A DNA stretch of 5,470 nt from an uncultured Clostridia bacterium (GTDB taxonomy: Bacteria > Bacillota > Clostridia > Monoglobales > Monoglobaceae): the NCBI GenBank assembly GCA_934454115.1, contig CAKSFQ010000045.1:1-5470 (forward strand), given 5' to 3'. Within the stretch, counting starts at the first letter, position 1, and each line of letters opens with the position of its first letter. The notes beneath the pieces were generated by a model, which made no database searches, had not been told where the DNA came from, and saw only the letters and a list, made by a program, of their open reading frames with translations. Position numbers and translations under genes: made by a program. This document shows positions 1 to 5,470 of the stretch, piece by piece.

Positions 1-905
1 CCGCAATCCGAACACAGTATGTAGCCGTCGTAGCTGCAGTGATTACAGTTTTCACAAATCCACTCCCAGCAAAGATTACAGTGCTCCCCTTCCTCACAGA
101 GTCTGTCGTATTCTTTGGGGCAAGCGCCGCAGTTGGTACAAATATCGCTCGGCTCCCAGTCGCTGCAAAAACCGCAGCTTCCGCAGCTTTCGCAGATTCT
201 GTCGTCTTTTTCGGCGCAATTATCGCACAGTTCGCAGGCATCGTGGTATTCATATGCGCAGCTGTTACATTCCGTACAGTGTGCATCCGACCAGCAATCC
301 TTACATCTGCCGCATTCCGAGCAGATGGTGCCGTCCGGAATACAGTCTACGCACCTTTCGCAACCCATGCAGAATTCGTCAATGGATTTACATTGGTTGC
401 AGGAGGACAGACATTGCTGGCAAACGATTTCCAGACAGCAGGCAAGAGTTGCACGGCAGGTCTTGCACAAATCCTCCTCCTCAAGATTTCCCTCGCCGTA
501 AAGACAAGTCAGACAGGCGTCGCAGTACGGACAAATGGCGCCGTTCGTCTGCCGGCAGTCTTCGCATATATGACAGTCGCTGCAGATATCCCTGCCGCAC
601 TCTCCGCAAGCTTTGCAGTGTTCGTTTTCGCCGCAGGATATACAATTCCAGCATTCGGTGCAGTATTCGTTTTCGCTCATATCGGCAAAGCATTCTCCGC
701 AGCTGTGGCAATGAGTGATTTCAAAGCAGTCGCTTCTGCAGTTCTCCGTACAGCGGCCGCAGCTTCCGCAGCAATGATCATCCCAATGGTAGTGGCCGCA
801 GCTTCCACAGTTCTGCCCATCGGCATAGTCCGCAAATGCTGCAAGCGGCAGAAGCGTCAGGATCATCATACATACCAAACATAGTGATAAAACTCTCTTT
901 CCCAT
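1..905 (-). CDS. Secreted, extremely cysteine-rich CxxC-repeat protein (partial, C-terminus beyond left edge)
   Basis: The minus-strand frame stays open from the ATG at 905 to the window edge: 301 codons plus two bases. A strong Shine-Dalgarno (AGGAGG, 918-913) lies 7 nt before the ATG. Residues 1-25 look like a Sec signal peptide: K3/R4, a hydrophobic core and an AFA-type cleavage site before D26. The visible mature part (26-301) holds 63 cysteines, about 23% of residues. They sit in C-x2-C arrays, with runs of four at C82/85/88/91, C108/111/114/117, C125/128/131/134, C179/182/185/188, C195/198/201/204 and C238/241/244/247. Arrays recur about every 14-18 residues, separated by short acidic or polar linkers. 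The start overlaps the preceding stop by one base (TGATG). Metal binding (zinc ribbon- or metallothionein-like) or disulfide cross-linking are both possible; I do not recognise a named family. The reading frame was checked base by base over about half its length and shows no frameshift. Whether a membrane anchor or wall-sorting signal follows is not visible. Confidence 0.85.
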   Translation of the reverse strand, partial: MGKRVLSLCLVCMMILTLLPLAAFADYADGQNCGSCGHYHWDDHCCGSCGRCTENCRSDCFEITHCHSCGECFADMSENEYCTECWNCISCGENEHCKACGECGRDICSDCHICEDCRQTNGAICPYCDACLTCLYGEGNLEEEDLCKTCRATLACCLEIVCQQCLSSCNQCKSIDEFCMGCERCVDCIPDGTICSECGRCKDCWSDAHCTECNSCAYEYHDACELCDNCAEKDDRICESCGSCGFCSDWEPSDICTNCGACPKEYDRLCEEGEHCNLCWEWICENCNHCSYDGYILCSDC

Positions 906-1192
906 CAAACTACCTCCTCCCTCTCTTTCCCATTTTGTTTTGCTCCGCACAAAGGACAGAACCCGGCATCATTTGGAAGAACATTTCCGCATTTTTCGCA
1001 GCAGCGGCCCTTTAACCTATAGGTATCAAAAAGCGTGTTTGCTGTCAGCGTTGCATGACAAACTTCACAAAACTTGTTTTTCGCTTTTTGCTTATTGCCG
1101 CAGCTCGAACAAACCTTATATTTTTTCATAAGCTCCGTACCAAAGCCAAAATGCTCCAGAACCTTTTTTCGCGACGGCTTATTTCTTGTCAT
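905..1192 (-). CDS. Small double zinc-ribbon protein (95 aa)
   Basis: This 95-residue protein carries two zinc-ribbon modules: C28-x2-C31-x10-C42-x2-C45 and C65-x2-C68-x10-C79-x2-C82. The second has the usual CxxCG...FCxxCG form of bacterial zinc-ribbon and DZANK-like domains. The N-terminus is basic (residues 1-26) and the tail is charged. No signal peptide or membrane helix is visible, so it is probably cytoplasmic. I chose the ATG at 1192 because it has an AAGGA-type Shine-Dalgarno about 10 nt upstream and begins 14 bases after the previous gene's stop. A longer frame from 1273 would overlap the C-terminal coding of that gene in another frame. The stop overlaps the start of the secreted cysteine-rich gene (TGATG), which suggests coupled translation. 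The precise role is unknown; structural zinc binding is inferred from the motifs. Confidence 0.8.
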   Translation of the reverse strand: MTRNKPSRKKVLEHFGFGTELMKKYKVCSSCGNKQKAKNKFCEVCHATLTANTLFDTYRLKGRCCEKCGNVLPNDAGFCPLCGAKQNGKEREEVV

Positions 1193-1206
1193 TTTTATCA
1201 AATCCT

Positions 1207-1563
1207 TTAATATAGTATTCTCTTGCCGCATACAGCGCAGATTGCAGCGCCGTCCTCTACCCTCGCTCCGCAATGCTTACAATACTTTGCCTCTTCCTCA
1301 AGGGGTGCGCACTCCGTACACATCAGCATATCCGGATTATACACAATCGAGTCGACCCATCTGCCGCACAAATGGCAAAAATTAAAATTTTTCTTGCCCT
1401 CCGCTTCCCACGCCGCCGAAAGCTCCGCCTCAGAATCGTCTGCATAATATGTTCCCGTGGTACAGACAAGCATCCCCGACAATTCGCAGAAAAAGCTGTA
1501 ACGGTTTCCGCCCTGTGACGGAATGACTTTGTATGCAGCCGCTTTGTGCTTCTCGTTTATCAT
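1207..1563 (-). CDS. Zinc-ribbon domain protein (118 aa), first gene of the cysteine-rich operon
   Basis: The C-terminal third is a zinc ribbon, C95-x2-C98-x10-C109-x2-C112, close in pattern to the second ribbon of the next gene product. A second cysteine quartet, C63-x2-C66 and C82-x2-C85, probably makes another zinc site in a treble-clef or ribbon-like fold. Two more cysteines (C26, C34) lie in the N-terminal part, which I do not recognise. No signal peptide or membrane segment is seen. I prefer the ATG at 1563 because AAGG (1575-1572) lies 8 nt before it; an in-frame GTG at 1572 would add three residues but falls within that ribosome-binding stretch. The stop is followed after 14 bases by the next zinc-ribbon gene, so the two are almost certainly co-transcribed. 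Function is unknown beyond likely zinc binding. Confidence 0.8.
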   Translation of the reverse strand: MINEKHKAAAYKVIPSQGGNRYSFFCELSGMLVCTTGTYYADDSEAELSAAWEAEGKKNFNFCHLCGRWVDSIVYNPDMLMCTECAPLEEEAKYCKHCGARVEDGAAICAVCGKRILY

Positions 1564-1606
1564 GCGCCTCACCTTCTCTCCGGAAATTCATAAAAACCGT
1601 TCGTTT

Positions 1607-1634
1607 TACATAAACCTACACAAATTGTCCGCAA
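1607..1634 (-). promoter_or_regulatory. Weak candidate promoter for the cysteine-rich operon
   Basis: On the minus strand TTGCGG (1634-1629) is followed after 16 bases by TATGTA (1612-1607), about 45-70 bases before the ATG at 1563. Both hexamers depart from the sigma-A consensus, so this is only the best candidate seen in a region where the operon needs a promoter. It lies back to back with the strong plus-strand promoter at 1639-1667. Confidence 0.25.
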
Positions 1635-1638
1635 ATCA

Positions 1639-1667
1639 TTGACTATGCACCAAAAACATGATATAAT
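1639..1667 (+). promoter_or_regulatory. Strong sigma-A type promoter (TTGACT-17-TGATATAAT)
   Basis: TTGACT (1639-1644), a 17-base spacer, and a perfect TATAAT (1662-1667) preceded by TG one base upstream (extended -10). Transcription should begin near 1674. The nearest plus-strand gene starts only at 2039, and a terminator-like hairpin lies at 1756-1780. The promoter therefore probably drives a small RNA or a long, attenuated leader of the solute-binding protein operon. Confidence 0.75.
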
Positions 1668-1673
1668 TGAGTC

Positions 1674-1780
1674 GGATATATCTGCATCAACCCGGTTTAT
1701 GCACCTTTGTTTTCGGTATTAAACGCTCCTTAAGTAAGTACAACGCACTTGCATCAAAGACATCCTTTGTCTTTATTTTT
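1674..1780 (+). ncRNA. Candidate small RNA or attenuated 5' leader (about 105 nt)
   Basis: The boundaries are inferred from the strong promoter at 1639-1667 and the intrinsic-terminator-like hairpin at 1756-1774 with its T-tract. Inside, TGCAT (1683-1687) pairs with ATGCA (1699-1703), with AAC/GTT continuing the stem around a three-base loop. GTTT/AAAC (1709-1724) and AAGT/ACTT (1736-1750) could form shorter helices. A CTCCTT stretch (1726-1731) and the TCCTT terminator loop (1763-1767) both resemble anti-Shine-Dalgarno seed sequences of regulatory RNAs. No open frame with a ribosome-binding site lies inside. It does not match 6S RNA, 4.5S RNA, tmRNA or a riboswitch class that I can recognise. 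It could instead be the start of a leader for the gene at 2039. Confidence 0.45.
1756..1780 (+). terminator. Intrinsic-terminator-like hairpin with T-tract
   Basis: AAAGACA (1756-1762) pairs perfectly with TGTCTTT (1768-1774) around a TCCTT loop, and ATTTTT follows directly. The 7-bp stem has only two G-C pairs, so termination may be partial or conditional. It lies about 85-105 nt downstream of the predicted start from the 1639-1667 promoter. Confidence 0.5.
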
Positions 1781-1853
1781 GCAGACAATCCTTTCCTACA
1801 CTGTAAATTTTAGTTTCCACGTTTTCTATTATACAGAGAAATCATAATTTATT

Positions 1854-1880
1854 CCCATACTTTTGGAAAAAAGTATAGGG
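1854..1880. repeat. Bulged inverted repeat (hairpin), GGAA loop
   Basis: CCC plus ATACTTTT (1854-1864) pairs with AAAAGTAT plus GGG (1869-1880), with one bulged A (1877) and a GGAA loop. That makes an 11-bp stem. No T-tract follows directly on either strand, so it is probably not a simple terminator. It could be an RNA hairpin in the leader of the 2039 gene or a protein-binding dyad. An A/T palindrome (AAAAAAAT, CA, ATTTTTTT; 1889-1906) follows closely. Confidence 0.5.
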
Positions 1881-1907
1881 CGAATTGTAAAAAAATCAAT
1901 TTTTTTT

Positions 1908-1931
1908 GGAAAAGTAGGGGGAAAAGTAGGG
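1908..1931 (+). repeat. Perfect 12-bp tandem duplication (GGAAAAGTAGGG x2)
   Basis: The unit GGAAAAGTAGGG occupies 1908-1919 and again 1920-1931 without a gap; the similar stretch GGAAAAAAGTATAGGG lies at 1865-1880. The repeats sit 108-131 bases before the start of the solute-binding protein gene. They could be a direct-repeat operator, possibly for the LuxR-type regulator encoded in the same operon; that link is inference only. Confidence 0.6.
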
Positions 1932-1946
1932 GAAATTCCAGAGATT

Positions 1947-1972
1947 CGCATCCCGCACAGGGAAAGCATGCG
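1947..1972 (+). repeat. Inverted repeat in the leader of the solute-binding protein gene
   Basis: CGCAT (1947-1951) pairs with ATGCG (1968-1972), and the inner CCC (1952-1954) can pair with GGG (1960-1962) around a GCACA loop, leaving an asymmetric AAAGC bulge. It lies about 65 bases before the ATG at 2039. It may be a leader hairpin or a regulator site. Confidence 0.35.
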
Positions 1973-2038
1973 GAAAAATATAGATGGTAATACAGAATGA
2001 TAAAGAAACGTCAAAACATATTACGGAGGGGCCATCAT

Positions 2039-3361
2039 ATGCGACAAATAAGAACATTTTTTTTGCTTTTGCTTATTTTTATCCTATCGATTTGCTGTCT
2101 TTCCGGCTGCAAAAGGTCGGAGCTTGACAAGAACAATCCCGTTACTCTTTCGCTTTGGCACGTATATGGTGAACAGTCCGATTCGCCGATGAACCGGCTG
2201 ATTGACGAATTTAACGAAACGGTTGGTATGGAAAAAGGTATTATTATCAATGTCACGGCAATGTCCAACGCCTCCAGAATAGGTGAAAAACTGCTTGACG
2301 CGTATAACAAGGTTCCCGGTTCCGCCGAAATGCCTGACCTTTTCTTTGCGCACAAAAGCAATGCGCTGGAGCTTGGAACGGATGCTTTGCTCGACTGGAA
2401 CGAATATTTTTCCGAAAAAGAGCTTTCGGCATATGTTCCGGAGTTTTTGGAAGACGGCACGGCAGACGGAAAGCTGTCTGTTTTTCCGGTATCTAAATCC
2501 ACGCATCTTTTATTCATCGCTGGCGGTCAGTTTGAACGTTTTTCAGCCGATACGGGCGTTACATACGAATCCCTTTCCGATTGGAACGGCTTTTTTGACG
2601 TTGCCGCAAAATTTTACGACTGGTCGGGCGGAAAGCCGTTCTGCGCTCTCGATTATCCGCTGCGAGCCGTTGAGCTTGCGGCTGCGGAAAACGGTGCAGC
2701 AAACATTTTTACCGACAACGGATTTTATGATCCCTCAAACGAGGTTTTTAGGCAAACCTTTATGAAGTTTGCGGATTCGCTTGCAAAAGGACATATTATG
2801 CTTTCAAACCTTTATTCAAACACACAGATTATGACGGGCGAAGTTGTGGCGGGCATAGGCTCGTCTGCCGCAATTCTTTACTATAACGATACCGTGACCT
2901 ATGAGGACGGAACAAGCGAGCCGATGAACCTGCAGATACTGCCTCTGCCCGCAGAAGACGGCAAAAAGCCGTATATCACGCAAGCCGGAGTTGGTCTTTG
3001 CGCATATAAAACCTCAAGCCAAAAAGCAGAGGCGGCAGTGATTTTCGCAAAATGGCTTACCGAGCCGGAGAGAAATCTTGATTTTGTATGTCAAACGGGT
3101 TATATGCCGGTTACAAACGGTGCGTTTGACAAATTAGACAACTACCGCTTTAAAACTGCCGATTATGAGAAGCTCTATTCGGCTCTGAAAAAAGCGAAGG
3201 AAGACTCTGAGGCTTTGTCGGAACAGCAAAGTCCCGAATATTACAGCAGAGTTTACGCATTTTACGATTATTTGAGGAATGAGCAGAAGCAGTTTGCGTT
3301 AAGCAGCGCGCCGCCCGAAGCGCTTGCCGATGAGCTTTGGCAAAAACTCTGCGAAAAATAA
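2039..3361 (+). CDS. Extracellular solute-binding lipoprotein (ABC-type, family 1-like)
   Basis: A 440-residue lipoprotein anchored outside the membrane. Residues 1-23 form a lipoprotein signal: R2/R5, a leucine/isoleucine core, and lipobox L21-S22-G23-C24, with C24 the lipidated residue. The mature part begins with a beta-strand typical of the class (TLSLWHVYG, from residue 36). Near the C-terminus it has the familiar helix and turn: A330-E331-A332-A333 through W339-L340-T341, then G354-Y355-M356-P357-V358. Length and pattern fit sugar- or oligosaccharide-binding proteins of ABC importers; the ligand cannot be read from sequence. I chose the ATG at 2039 because GGAGGG (2025-2030) lies 8 nt before it; the in-frame ATG at 1997 would add a charged extension ahead of the signal peptide. 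No permease or ATPase gene is in the window. The next gene, 13 bases on, encodes a membrane regulator with an external sensor domain, so the protein may deliver ligand to that sensor. Confidence 0.88.
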   Translation: MRQIRTFFLLLLIFILSICCLSGCKRSELDKNNPVTLSLWHVYGEQSDSPMNRLIDEFNETVGMEKGIIINVTAMSNASRIGEKLLDAYNKVPGSAEMPDLFFAHKSNALELGTDALLDWNEYFSEKELSAYVPEFLEDGTADGKLSVFPVSKSTHLLFIAGGQFERFSADTGVTYESLSDWNGFFDVAAKFYDWSGGKPFCALDYPLRAVELAAAENGAANIFTDNGFYDPSNEVFRQTFMKFADSLAKGHIMLSNLYSNTQIMTGEVVAGIGSSAAILYYNDTVTYEDGTSEPMNLQILPLPAEDGKKPYITQAGVGLCAYKTSSQKAEAAVIFAKWLTEPERNLDFVCQTGYMPVTNGAFDKLDNYRFKTADYEKLYSALKKAKEDSEALSEQQSPEYYSRVYAFYDYLRNEQKQFALSSAPPEALADELWQKLCEK

Positions 3362-3374
3362 ACGGGGGATTGTT

Positions 3375-4985
3375 ATGCAAAGATTGGTAAGGAATAAAAA
3401 GCAATCTATGCAAAAAAAACTGTTTGGATATATGTTTATCCTGGCAATCGTTTTATTGCTTATATTTGCGGCTTTTCTCTTTCTATTCGGACATTTTTCG
3501 ACAACCGAGGATAAAATGTCGGATATATTAAGCCTCCAACTCGAGTTCTTCGACCGGGAAATGACGTCCTACTACAACGACATTACCCTGCGCGGCGCGC
3601 GGCTTTCCGAAAAAGCCGCGCAAATTACCGAGCAATATCTTAATTCGGAAAATAAAGATTTCGGCAGCATTCAGAATTCTTCTTTACATATCAACGCTCT
3701 TGAGGAACGCTATATTGATTTGTTGAAGGATGAGCTTTTAAAGGCAAGCTGTTCCGGCGCTTTTATTCTGCTTGATGCGTCTCAAACCGGCGCAAGCGGA
3801 TCAAAAGCAGGCGTATATCTTAATCAGGACTTGTTCGAAACATCGGATAAGGAAACGATGCTTCTTTACAGGGGAAATGTGAAGGCTGCAATAAACAAGG
3901 GCATTATGCCTCACCGTAAATGGCATTTGGAATTTGACGTCGAAGGATTCCCGAATCTTGAGGAAATCCTTGCGGATACCGCCGAGCCGATTGAGAGAGC
4001 CTCTCACATCTGTAATATTATAACGCTCCCGGGAACATCGGAGCGCGTTATGCTTGTTGCGCTTCCGATCAGGGGCGACAACTGCGTTTACGGCATCTGC
4101 GGATTTGAAGTGAACGAAAGCGTTTTTAAGTCATCGCACGCACAACCGTCCACACTTCCGCACATAACCTGCGTATTCTCTCGTTCGGACGATGAAGAAA
4201 TCAATATTAAAGAGGGGTTAAGCTGCGGCGCAAAAAACGGATATTTCCTTGCACCGCAGGATTCCCTCAAAATCAAGCCTTTGAAAAAGGGGCTTGTTGC
4301 TTTGAAAAATGAATACGGCGCATATATCGGCATGACAAGAAACACAACGCTTTATTCCGAAAACACACCTTATTCGGTTACGGTGATGATGCCTTATGCG
4401 GATTATTCCCGACAGGAAACGAAAAACACCATGCAGCTTATACTTATAATTCTGATTTTGGGGTTTGCAGTTTTAAGCCTTAGCCTGTATTTTTCAAAAC
4501 GATTTATCCTTCCGATAAAAAAATCGCTTGACAAGATAAGGCAATCCGAAAAGACATATTCCGGCGAAAGCCAGAGCGGCATTATGGAAATTGACGACCT
4601 TTTTGCCTTTCTTTCCGAAAGGGATAACGAATATCAAAAAATCTTTGACAAGCATTCCGAAAAAAACGAGAGCTTGCAAAGCGAGATTGAACGTATACGC
4701 ACTGAAAACAGGCGTCTGATAAAAGAGCATAAAAATATCATTGTGCAGGACGATTATGATCATTTCTGCTCAGGCATACGCAGCCTTACTCCCAAAGAGA
4801 GAACCATATTTGACCTCTATCTACAGGGGAAAACCGTTCCTGAGATTTTACAGATTGCAGAAGTTAAGGAGAGTACACTAAAATACCATAACGGCAATAT
4901 TTACAGTAAGCTCGGCGTTACCTCAAAAAAGCAGCTTCTTAGTTTTGCGGCGATTTATATGAATAATAAGGAAAACGGCAGCTGA
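3375..4985 (+). CDS. Membrane-bound LuxR-family transcriptional regulator with extracytoplasmic sensor domain
   Basis: A 536-residue one-component sensor-regulator. A basic N-terminus precedes membrane helix 1 (about 16-39). Residues 42-352 lie outside and look like a Cache-type sensor, with core strands G128-A-F-I-L-L-D134 and R224-V-M-L-V-A-L-P-I-R233 ending in Y239-G-I-C-G-F-E-V246. Membrane helix 2 spans about 353-374, followed by a short linker (L-P-I-K-K-S) and a predicted coiled coil (about 418-458). The C-terminus (470-530) is a LuxR/GerE helix-turn-helix: L471-T-P-K-E-R476, then S500-T-L-K-Y-H-N-G-N-I-Y-S-K-L-G514. There is no receiver or kinase domain, so sensing and DNA binding are in one chain. 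The ATG at 3375 follows GGGGGA by about 6 nt; the frame extends to a TTG at 3324 but that lies inside the upstream gene. It probably senses a ligand, perhaps via the adjacent lipoprotein, and controls this operon or uptake genes elsewhere. Confidence 0.85.
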   Translation: MQRLVRNKKQSMQKKLFGYMFILAIVLLLIFAAFLFLFGHFSTTEDKMSDILSLQLEFFDREMTSYYNDITLRGARLSEKAAQITEQYLNSENKDFGSIQNSSLHINALEERYIDLLKDELLKASCSGAFILLDASQTGASGSKAGVYLNQDLFETSDKETMLLYRGNVKAAINKGIMPHRKWHLEFDVEGFPNLEEILADTAEPIERASHICNIITLPGTSERVMLVALPIRGDNCVYGICGFEVNESVFKSSHAQPSTLPHITCVFSRSDDEEINIKEGLSCGAKNGYFLAPQDSLKIKPLKKGLVALKNEYGAYIGMTRNTTLYSENTPYSVTVMMPYADYSRQETKNTMQLILIILILGFAVLSLSLYFSKRFILPIKKSLDKIRQSEKTYSGESQSGIMEIDDLFAFLSERDNEYQKIFDKHSEKNESLQSEIERIRTENRRLIKEHKNIIVQDDYDHFCSGIRSLTPKERTIFDLYLQGKTVPEILQIAEVKESTLKYHNGNIYSKLGVTSKKQLLSFAAIYMNNKENGS

Positions 4986-4986
4986 T

Positions 4987-5010
4987 GCTTGTGTAAATCT
5001 CAAGCTTTTC
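4987..5010 (+). terminator. Weak terminator candidate after the regulator gene
   Basis: GCTTG (4987-4991) pairs with CAAGC (5001-5005) around a nine-base loop and TTTTC follows. The stem is only 5 bp, so it is weak, but it lies directly after the stop codon at 4983-4985, where an operon end is expected. Confidence 0.3.
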
Positions 5011-5079
5011 TCCAAAATGGTAATAGGGTTTCAGCGACTTTAGGAGCAGAAAAACCGATATTTTGTCATAGAAAAATCT

Positions 5080-5106
5080 AATTTACAGAAAAAACTTCAC
5101 ACGCCC
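5080..5106. mobile_element. Possible outer end of an IS256/Mutator-type insertion sequence
   Basis: The stretch containing TTTACAG (5082-5088), an A-run and CTTCACACGCCC (5095-5106) resembles from memory the TTTACA...CACAC..CC layout of terminal inverted repeats of IS256-family elements. No transposase is visible in the window and I find no clear matching opposite end or target-site duplication. It is at best a solo end or remnant. Confidence 0.2.
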
Positions 5107-5116
5107 ATATCATACC

Positions 5117-5401
5117 ATGCAAAAGGAAACTTCTTCGTTGCCGCGATTTCCCGGAGATGCTGATCTGTTTTATAAACTTTACAATATCTTATCTTCGGTT
5201 GACGGCCGAGCAATTCCTTCCTATCTAAACGTATCTAGCGAAGACCGCGAGTTCACCGTACCGGAAGTACTGGTGGACAAATTCGCAGAATACATCACAG
5301 ATAAAGTTGAAAGCATTCTCGTTCCTGAATGTGAACAGTATGGTCCCCGTCTATTAAACATCATTGAAAGCCATCCTAATGTCACGTTTACCCTAGGTTG
5401 A
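5117..5401 (+). CDS. Unidentified 94-codon open frame, possibly a gene remnant
   Basis: The frame runs from the ATG at 5117 to a TGA at 5399-5401, giving 94 residues with plausible protein composition (mixed hydrophobic and charged residues, acidic helix-like central part). I do not recognise it. No Shine-Dalgarno precedes the ATG, although the other genes in the window have clear sites. The frame stays open upstream only to a TAG at 5069, with no other ATG. No signal peptide, membrane helix or metal motif is seen. The ATG lies just after the possible IS end at 5080-5106, so this could be a gene fragment cut off at its 5' side, a true small gene, or a chance open frame. Codon choice (for example several CTA codons) seems somewhat different from the upstream genes, by eye only. 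Confidence 0.35.
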   Translation: MQKETSSLPRFPGDADLFYKLYNILSSVDGRAIPSYLNVSSEDREFTVPEVLVDKFAEYITDKVESILVPECEQYGPRLLNIIESHPNVTFTLG

Positions 5402-5447
5402 CGGCTAGATACGCATTAGAGATGTCTCCATCCAAATGCTGTTCTAG

Positions 5448-5465
5448 CAAGGGATTTTTCCCTTG
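5448..5465. repeat. Perfect 7-bp inverted repeat with TTTT loop
   Basis: CAAGGGA (5448-5454) and TCCCTTG (5459-5465) are exact complements around TTTT (5455-5458). No T-tract is visible after it on the plus strand before the window ends, so a terminator cannot be claimed. It may be a dyad site or part of a structure that continues past the edge. Confidence 0.5.
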
Positions 5466-5470
5466 AACCC

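Follow-up and report, generated by a model that had tools for sequence, protein, structure and literature searches.

We analyzed a 5,470-nucleotide stretch of DNA (the window) from an uncultured Clostridia bacterium (assembly GCA_934454115.1, contig CAKSFQ010000045.1, positions 1 to 5,470), which carries at one edge, on the minus strand, the 5' part of a gene for a protein with a long array of cysteine (Cys) residues spaced as CxxC. With a probability of about one half, this is a predicted exported and likely wall-anchored protein, the CxxC array of which would take up thiophilic metal ions, with zinc the likeliest, as a rod-like surface coat or sponge. Directly observed in favor of this proposal are the array itself, a conserved N-terminal cap, near-invariant Cys, changes between relatives in blocks of 16 or 22 Cys, anchors in 21 of 24 complete representatives of the family and two upstream zinc-ribbon genes. 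The features of the gene are as follows.

3 to 905, minus strand: 5' part of the Cys-array gene, a 301-codon open frame that leaves the window, supported by relatives
831 to 905, minus strand: residues 1-25, a predicted signal peptide for Sec export with a KR n-region and a hydrophobic core, cut between AFA and D
690 to 809, minus strand: N-terminal Cys/His cap, residues 33-72, from the alignment of relatives
3 to 662, minus strand: Cys array, residues 82-301, with six CxxCxxCxxC runs plus shorter runs, extending past the window
913 to 918, minus strand: Shine-Dalgarno-like AGGAGG, 7 nucleotides (nt) ahead of the ATG of the array gene

The array gene starts with an ATG at 905-903 on the minus strand, and its frame stays open up to the first bases of the window. 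A frame on the opposite strand (3 to 884, plus) is likewise open and has none of the Shine-Dalgarno, overlap or relative support seen for the minus-strand frame. The minus-strand frame is supported because the AGGAGG lies at 7 nt, the ATG overlaps the stop of the upstream gene (TGATG) and the protein relatives fall in the same frame. The N-terminus is signal-like (MGKRVLSLCLVCMMILTLLPLAAFA followed by D, with the cut placed after residue 25), and hydropathy over 15 residues peaks at 2.5 within residues 7-24; this signal peptide was judged from sequence and hydropathy.

The visible 301 residues contain 65 Cys, 63 of which fall in the 276 residues after the predicted signal peptide (22.8%). This mature part holds 38 CxxC pairs, against 14.1±2.9 in shuffled sequences (n=5000, maximum 26), and no CxC, against about 14 expected; CC occurs twice in the window protein. 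The CxxC excess and the CxC absence relative to the shuffles indicate that the Cys pattern is real and lies far beyond what composition alone would give. The initial annotation, a Cys-rich exported protein with CxxC arrays and acidic linkers, is thus upheld in its main points, including the charge (D+E 55, K+R 15). Two of its details needed correction. It had described runs of up to four C-x2-C steps; the longest runs of Cys at every third residue (step-3 runs) have four Cys and hence three steps, with six such runs and none of five. It had also proposed a repeat about every 14-18 residues; pairs of Cys are frequent at separations of 14, 17, 20, 22 and 23 residues, that is, at several spacings without a single clean period.

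We searched for relatives of the window protein. A direct protein search returned one close relative, P0002, and a query of doubled length, which admits longer proteins, returned three full-length relatives of 889-1005 residues. A profile built from these three matched 285 proteins at E≤1e-3, of which 120 were among the matches listed; only proteins of roughly 405-1290 residues were candidates. In all, 124 proteins were examined, clustered by shared 6-mers into 27 groups. The set of complete representatives (n=24) leaves out P0001 (partial), P0002 (frameshifted) and P0118 (without N-terminus), and a set of 26 representatives, used for run, column and motif counts, includes P0118 and omits P0002. 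The arrays of the family have 20-27% Cys in step-3 runs of two to four, and the window protein, with 22.8% Cys and runs of up to four, falls within these ranges. Only two source names appeared among the relatives listed, Ruminococcaceae bacterium and Clostridia bacterium, both with the product given as 'hypothetical protein'.

The initial annotation had named beforehand, as refuting, a match to a characterized family, and none was found in Pfam, NCBIfam or PDB sequences. Up to E=1, neither Pfam nor NCBIfam contained a match to the window protein, and PDB gave only two non-significant ones (E about 0.05); all PDB sequence searches gave non-significant matches only, mostly zinc fingers. A comparison of the array with PHROGs brought no notable match, and a literature search, judged on titles and abstract openings, returned no account of the family. 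A single scan of genome contigs found one matching stretch and no distinct locus, perhaps the window itself. No relative was found in viral contigs scanned with P0001, A2, A3, P0034, P0016, P0054 and the upstream zinc-ribbon protein. Translated searches (tblastn) of phages gave no match with P0001 and one short match with P0004, to C-terminal residues 870-942 only; among the matches listed, a plasmid search with P0054 gave its SLH end only. By these comparisons, the Cys-array proteins are a real, large bacterial family that is absent from the curated libraries searched.

The complete representatives have 877-1287 residues, in keeping with the earlier expectation that the gene may be much longer than its visible part. 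Each combines a Cys/His cap with an array (72-206 Cys), followed by ordinary surface modules. A signal-like N-terminus was present in 23 of 24 (first 36 residues inspected), P0008 having a longer N-terminus. An anchor was recognizable in 21 of 24: an LPxTG motif or membrane tail in 13, SLH in seven and CWB2 in one, with LPxTG-like motifs and membrane tails called by a crude script; none was recognized in P0031, P0071 and P0094. These N-termini and anchors agree with the secreted or surface placement suggested initially. A cytoplasmic zinc-ribbon protein, the other reading that had been set against it, was not borne out, as the protein does not look cytoplasmic.

The cap has the pattern C-x2-C-G ... 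C ... C ... C-x5-C-x2-C-x2-C and directly follows the signal peptide. Its nine Cys columns are invariant across 36 aligned rows (profile A5, in which the first two rows are both the window protein), and at each of the nine the window protein aligns gap-free. The predicted cap structure has a predicted local distance difference test (pLDDT) score of mostly 84-91, and its best fold matches, all weak, are to LIM zinc domains; absence of a fold from the VIA match lists, disulfide-rich folds included, does not rule that fold out.

Substitutions in the arrays were compared within 12 clusters of close relatives (109 proteins). Varying columns numbered 11 of 1662 for Cys and 1545 of 4808 for other residues; without the two-member clusters the counts were 8 of 901 and 997 of 2529. 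The Cys-column count is slightly optimistic, because the consensus of a two-member cluster favors its first row. There were 12 distinct Cys replacements, the commonest being His (3), although His is two base changes away. On this pattern of substitution, all array Cys are held under selection.

Gaps in the array between close relatives were analyzed in 20 of the 69 proteins of the largest cluster and in all members of the 11 other clusters. Six gaps covered blocks of 58-63 or 91-92 residues and carried 16 Cys in four cases and 22 in two; one further gap covered 3 residues and 1 Cys. Because the gaps carry 16- or 22-Cys blocks, the array grows and shrinks by whole modules. Such module-variable arrays were found in three clusters other than the largest. 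In the largest cluster, with eight length classes aligned, almost no change in array copy number was seen (one 13-residue gap in the array region), and the proteins differed in length where the N-terminus starts and by a C-terminal SLH block of 60 residues.

The modules after the array include InlB B-repeats and Listeria-Bacteroides repeats, along with weak CBM_X2, Y_Y_Y, Big_2 and SprB. They are what would make the protein an adhesin or carbohydrate-binding surface protein, with the Cys array as a mere spacer and the C-terminal modules doing the work. We think this very unlikely, since the modules vary from group to group whereas the cap and array are constant, and since every array Cys is under selection. 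Even so, the spacer itself may be stiffened by metal or by disulfides. As a separate observation, in P0004, P0007, P0034 and others the array is followed by modules poor in Cys, which carry H-W-x2-C and CxxCG...IPxxGH patterns and recur between otherwise different members.

The C-terminal end of the window protein lies outside the window, and P0002 gives a partial view of it. P0002 is nearly identical, and its reading passes through three frames (the Cys frame, two others and the Cys frame again); compared with window 3-680 on the minus strand, the frame changes near positions 640, 490 and 225. Because of this reading in three frames, it is either a broken copy or misassembled. Its last Cys-frame piece has 7 differences in 69 residues from the window protein, none at Cys, and extends about 50 residues beyond the window end to CC-x7-GC-x-H-x2-C, the motif with which the array ends in 9 of 24 complete representatives. 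Since this continuation reaches an array-closing motif, the array probably ends soon past the window, with the C-terminal modules beyond. We infer that the window gene is anchored like its relatives.

The initial annotation had offered metal binding, redox activity and disulfide cross-linking side by side. Among the step-3 runs of the 26 representatives, 344 consist of one Cys, 487 of two, 151 of three, 382 of four and 1 of five, so that two and four are favored and four is a ceiling. The residue after the second Cys of CxxC was Gly in 41.8% of cases (12.6±1.0% in shuffles), Pro stood in CPxC in 16.2% (2.5±0.5%) and His stood ahead of a run in 12.3% (3.7±0.6%). Enrichment of Gly, Pro and His around CxxC is the flavor of zinc-ribbon knuckles; the window protein has the same Gly and His but no CPxCG. 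Cys totals were odd in 12 of 24 proteins and in 11 of 24 arrays. In PMC12453122, an excess of even Cys counts is tied to oxidative folding. The knuckle residues, CxxCxxxCxxC, the lack of an even-Cys rule and the weak LIM-like fold favor metal thiolates over full disulfide pairing. Of the three options, then, metal is the one favored, and the array is likely a surface metal-thiolate coat or stalk, with zinc as the probable metal.

Disulfides remain the main rival, in our estimate a rather unlikely one. Once outside the cell, the CxxC pairs would be oxidized to disulfides, giving a rod or coat that is stiff and withstands proteases; the same is assumed of surface proteins in Giardia. The predicted export and, mostly, anchoring of the proteins, their nearly invariant Cys and the even Cys numbers of the module gaps all suit such a stalk; furthermore, Giardia variant-specific surface proteins (VSPs) are reported to be protease- and acid-resistant (PMC6341118), and DsbA-like enzymes occur in clostridial species (PMC12453122). 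The odd Cys totals in half of the proteins and the zinc-knuckle residues flanking CxxC argue against it, as does the tendency of obligate anaerobes to keep cysteine out of exported proteins, stated in PMC12453122.

An iron-sulfur (Fe-S) or redox array, in which CxxCxxC groups carry Fe-S clusters or thiol/disulfide cycling buffers or carries electrons at the surface, appears very unlikely. CxxCxxCxxxC, which resembles ferredoxin half-motifs, occurs 136 times in the 26 representatives, and in 25 of these Pro follows. Against clusters, that Pro also opens a CPxCG knuckle, step-3 runs of four dominate and searches against ferredoxin families found no match for the window protein (limit E=1) or for P0003-P0005 (limit E=0.1). 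Sec export of an unfolded chain is also ill-suited to cytoplasmic cluster insertion, and these proteins would leave the cell by that route.

For the metal-binding coat that we prefer, the chain would be exported via Sec. In LIM domains, HxxC-xx-CxxC joins two zinc sites; after this model a run of four Cys in the array would supply two half-sites and a run of two Cys one half-site. Neighboring half-sites would close on one metal as CxxC knuckles pair up, and the bound metal would be zinc rather than another. The role may be metal holding, the stiffening of a stalk that presents the C-terminal modules, or both. We advance only tentatively the further possibility of a giant bacterial surface metallothionein, wall-anchored and with up to about 200 Cys, that would hold tens of zinc or other thiophilic ions outside the cell in duplicable 16- and 22-Cys modules.

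Two small genes lie upstream of the array gene on the same strand.

905 to 1192, minus strand: 95-amino-acid double zinc ribbon protein, directly upstream of the array gene (PF12773, E=1e-12), its TGA overlapping the array ATG
1207 to 1572, minus strand: 121-amino-acid zinc ribbon protein, first gene of the apparent operon (PF13240, E=3.5e-7; PF12773, E=1.4e-6)

The 121-amino-acid gene ends 14 bp ahead of the ATG of the 95-amino-acid gene, and by their arrangement the two zinc ribbon genes and the array gene look like an operon. No Rfam RNA elements or Zur-box-like sites were found.

The plus strand carries a gene resembling extracellular solute-binding lipoproteins (PF13416, E=9.8e-18) and one whose product is a membrane protein that has a DNA-binding end of the LuxR type (PF00196, E=1.8e-11). 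These stand directly one after the other (2042-4985), as an unusual-looking membrane one-component regulator pair. A 94-residue open frame at 5117-5401 (plus) had no significant match in Pfam; NCBIfam and PHROGs gave no match at the thresholds applied. The 71 bases at 5400-5470 are 94.6% identical to part of a 'Bacteriophage sp.' record without annotation, from human feces (MT836647.1; match of 74 bp), and no tRNA was found there. Beyond that record the window DNA had no near-match in the phage collection, and none in plasmids.

The density and number of Cys outside the cell are extreme for bacteria that are said to exclude cysteine from exported proteins, and the family is modular, of considerable size (one search, restricted by length, gave 285 proteins) and named only as hypothetical where a source name is shown. 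If metal binding is true, the proteins would represent a new kind of surface metal store, bearing on competition for zinc. If they are disulfide-bonded, oxidative folding would take place in organisms that are credited with little of it. A giant surface metallothionein, if true, would overturn the rule that anaerobic Gram-positives avoid exported cysteine and would equip these bacteria with a store of metal outside the cell, or with a stalk stiffened by metal.

Among known systems, metallothioneins share with the array a Cys content of 20-30% and, in some members, few aromatic residues in the linkers. Metallothioneins are short proteins of the cytoplasm with abundant CxC and CC, whereas in the array both are depleted (of 3278 Cys-Cys steps, 62 are CxC and 48 are CC) and the proteins are about 880-1290 residues long and predicted to be exported. 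The window protein itself was rejected as a metallothionein, having CxC 0, CC 2, a predicted signal peptide and more than 300 residues. LIM, RING and PHD domains and the double zinc ribbon (PF00412, PF12773) resemble the array in their CxxC knuckles with a CPxCG flavor, and the cap has its weak LIM-like match; the array linkers of 3-8 residues are much shorter than those of these domains. The LIM spacing C-x2-C-x(16-23)-H-x2-C-x2-C-x2-C-x(16-21)-C-x2-(C/D/H), slightly widened, occurs 0 times in the window protein and in 1 of 26 representatives (P0054). Up to E=1 the array matches neither PF00412 nor PF12773, although both upstream proteins match the latter. As a 2[4Fe-4S] ferredoxin the window protein was likewise rejected, with no profile match up to E=1 and CxxCxxCxxxC, ignoring Pro, only once.

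Gram-positive SLH, LPxTG and CWB2 surface proteins share the overall architecture and anchors of the relatives; such exported proteins, unlike the Cys-array proteins, normally avoid Cys (PMC12453122). Closest in kind to the family is the Giardia surface coat. The Giardia VSPs, as described in PMC2996952, have in common with the family a signal peptide, surface anchoring, frequent CxxC, uncommon CxC, CxxCxxxCxxC and a repeat-driven size range, and zinc binding, at substoichiometric levels, is reported there for Giardia surface-coat proteins. They differ in being eukaryotic and in having a conserved C-terminal tail anchor, where the bacterial relatives use SLH, LPxTG or CWB2. VSP genes average 12.6 CxxC per kb in the same source, and the window gene has 39 in 903 bp, or about 43 per kb, more than three times as many. 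This likeness, which is one to a published description, is likely convergent. We therefore file the Cys-array proteins as a new bacterial family that may work somewhat like the Giardia coat and the metallothioneins while being a member of neither.
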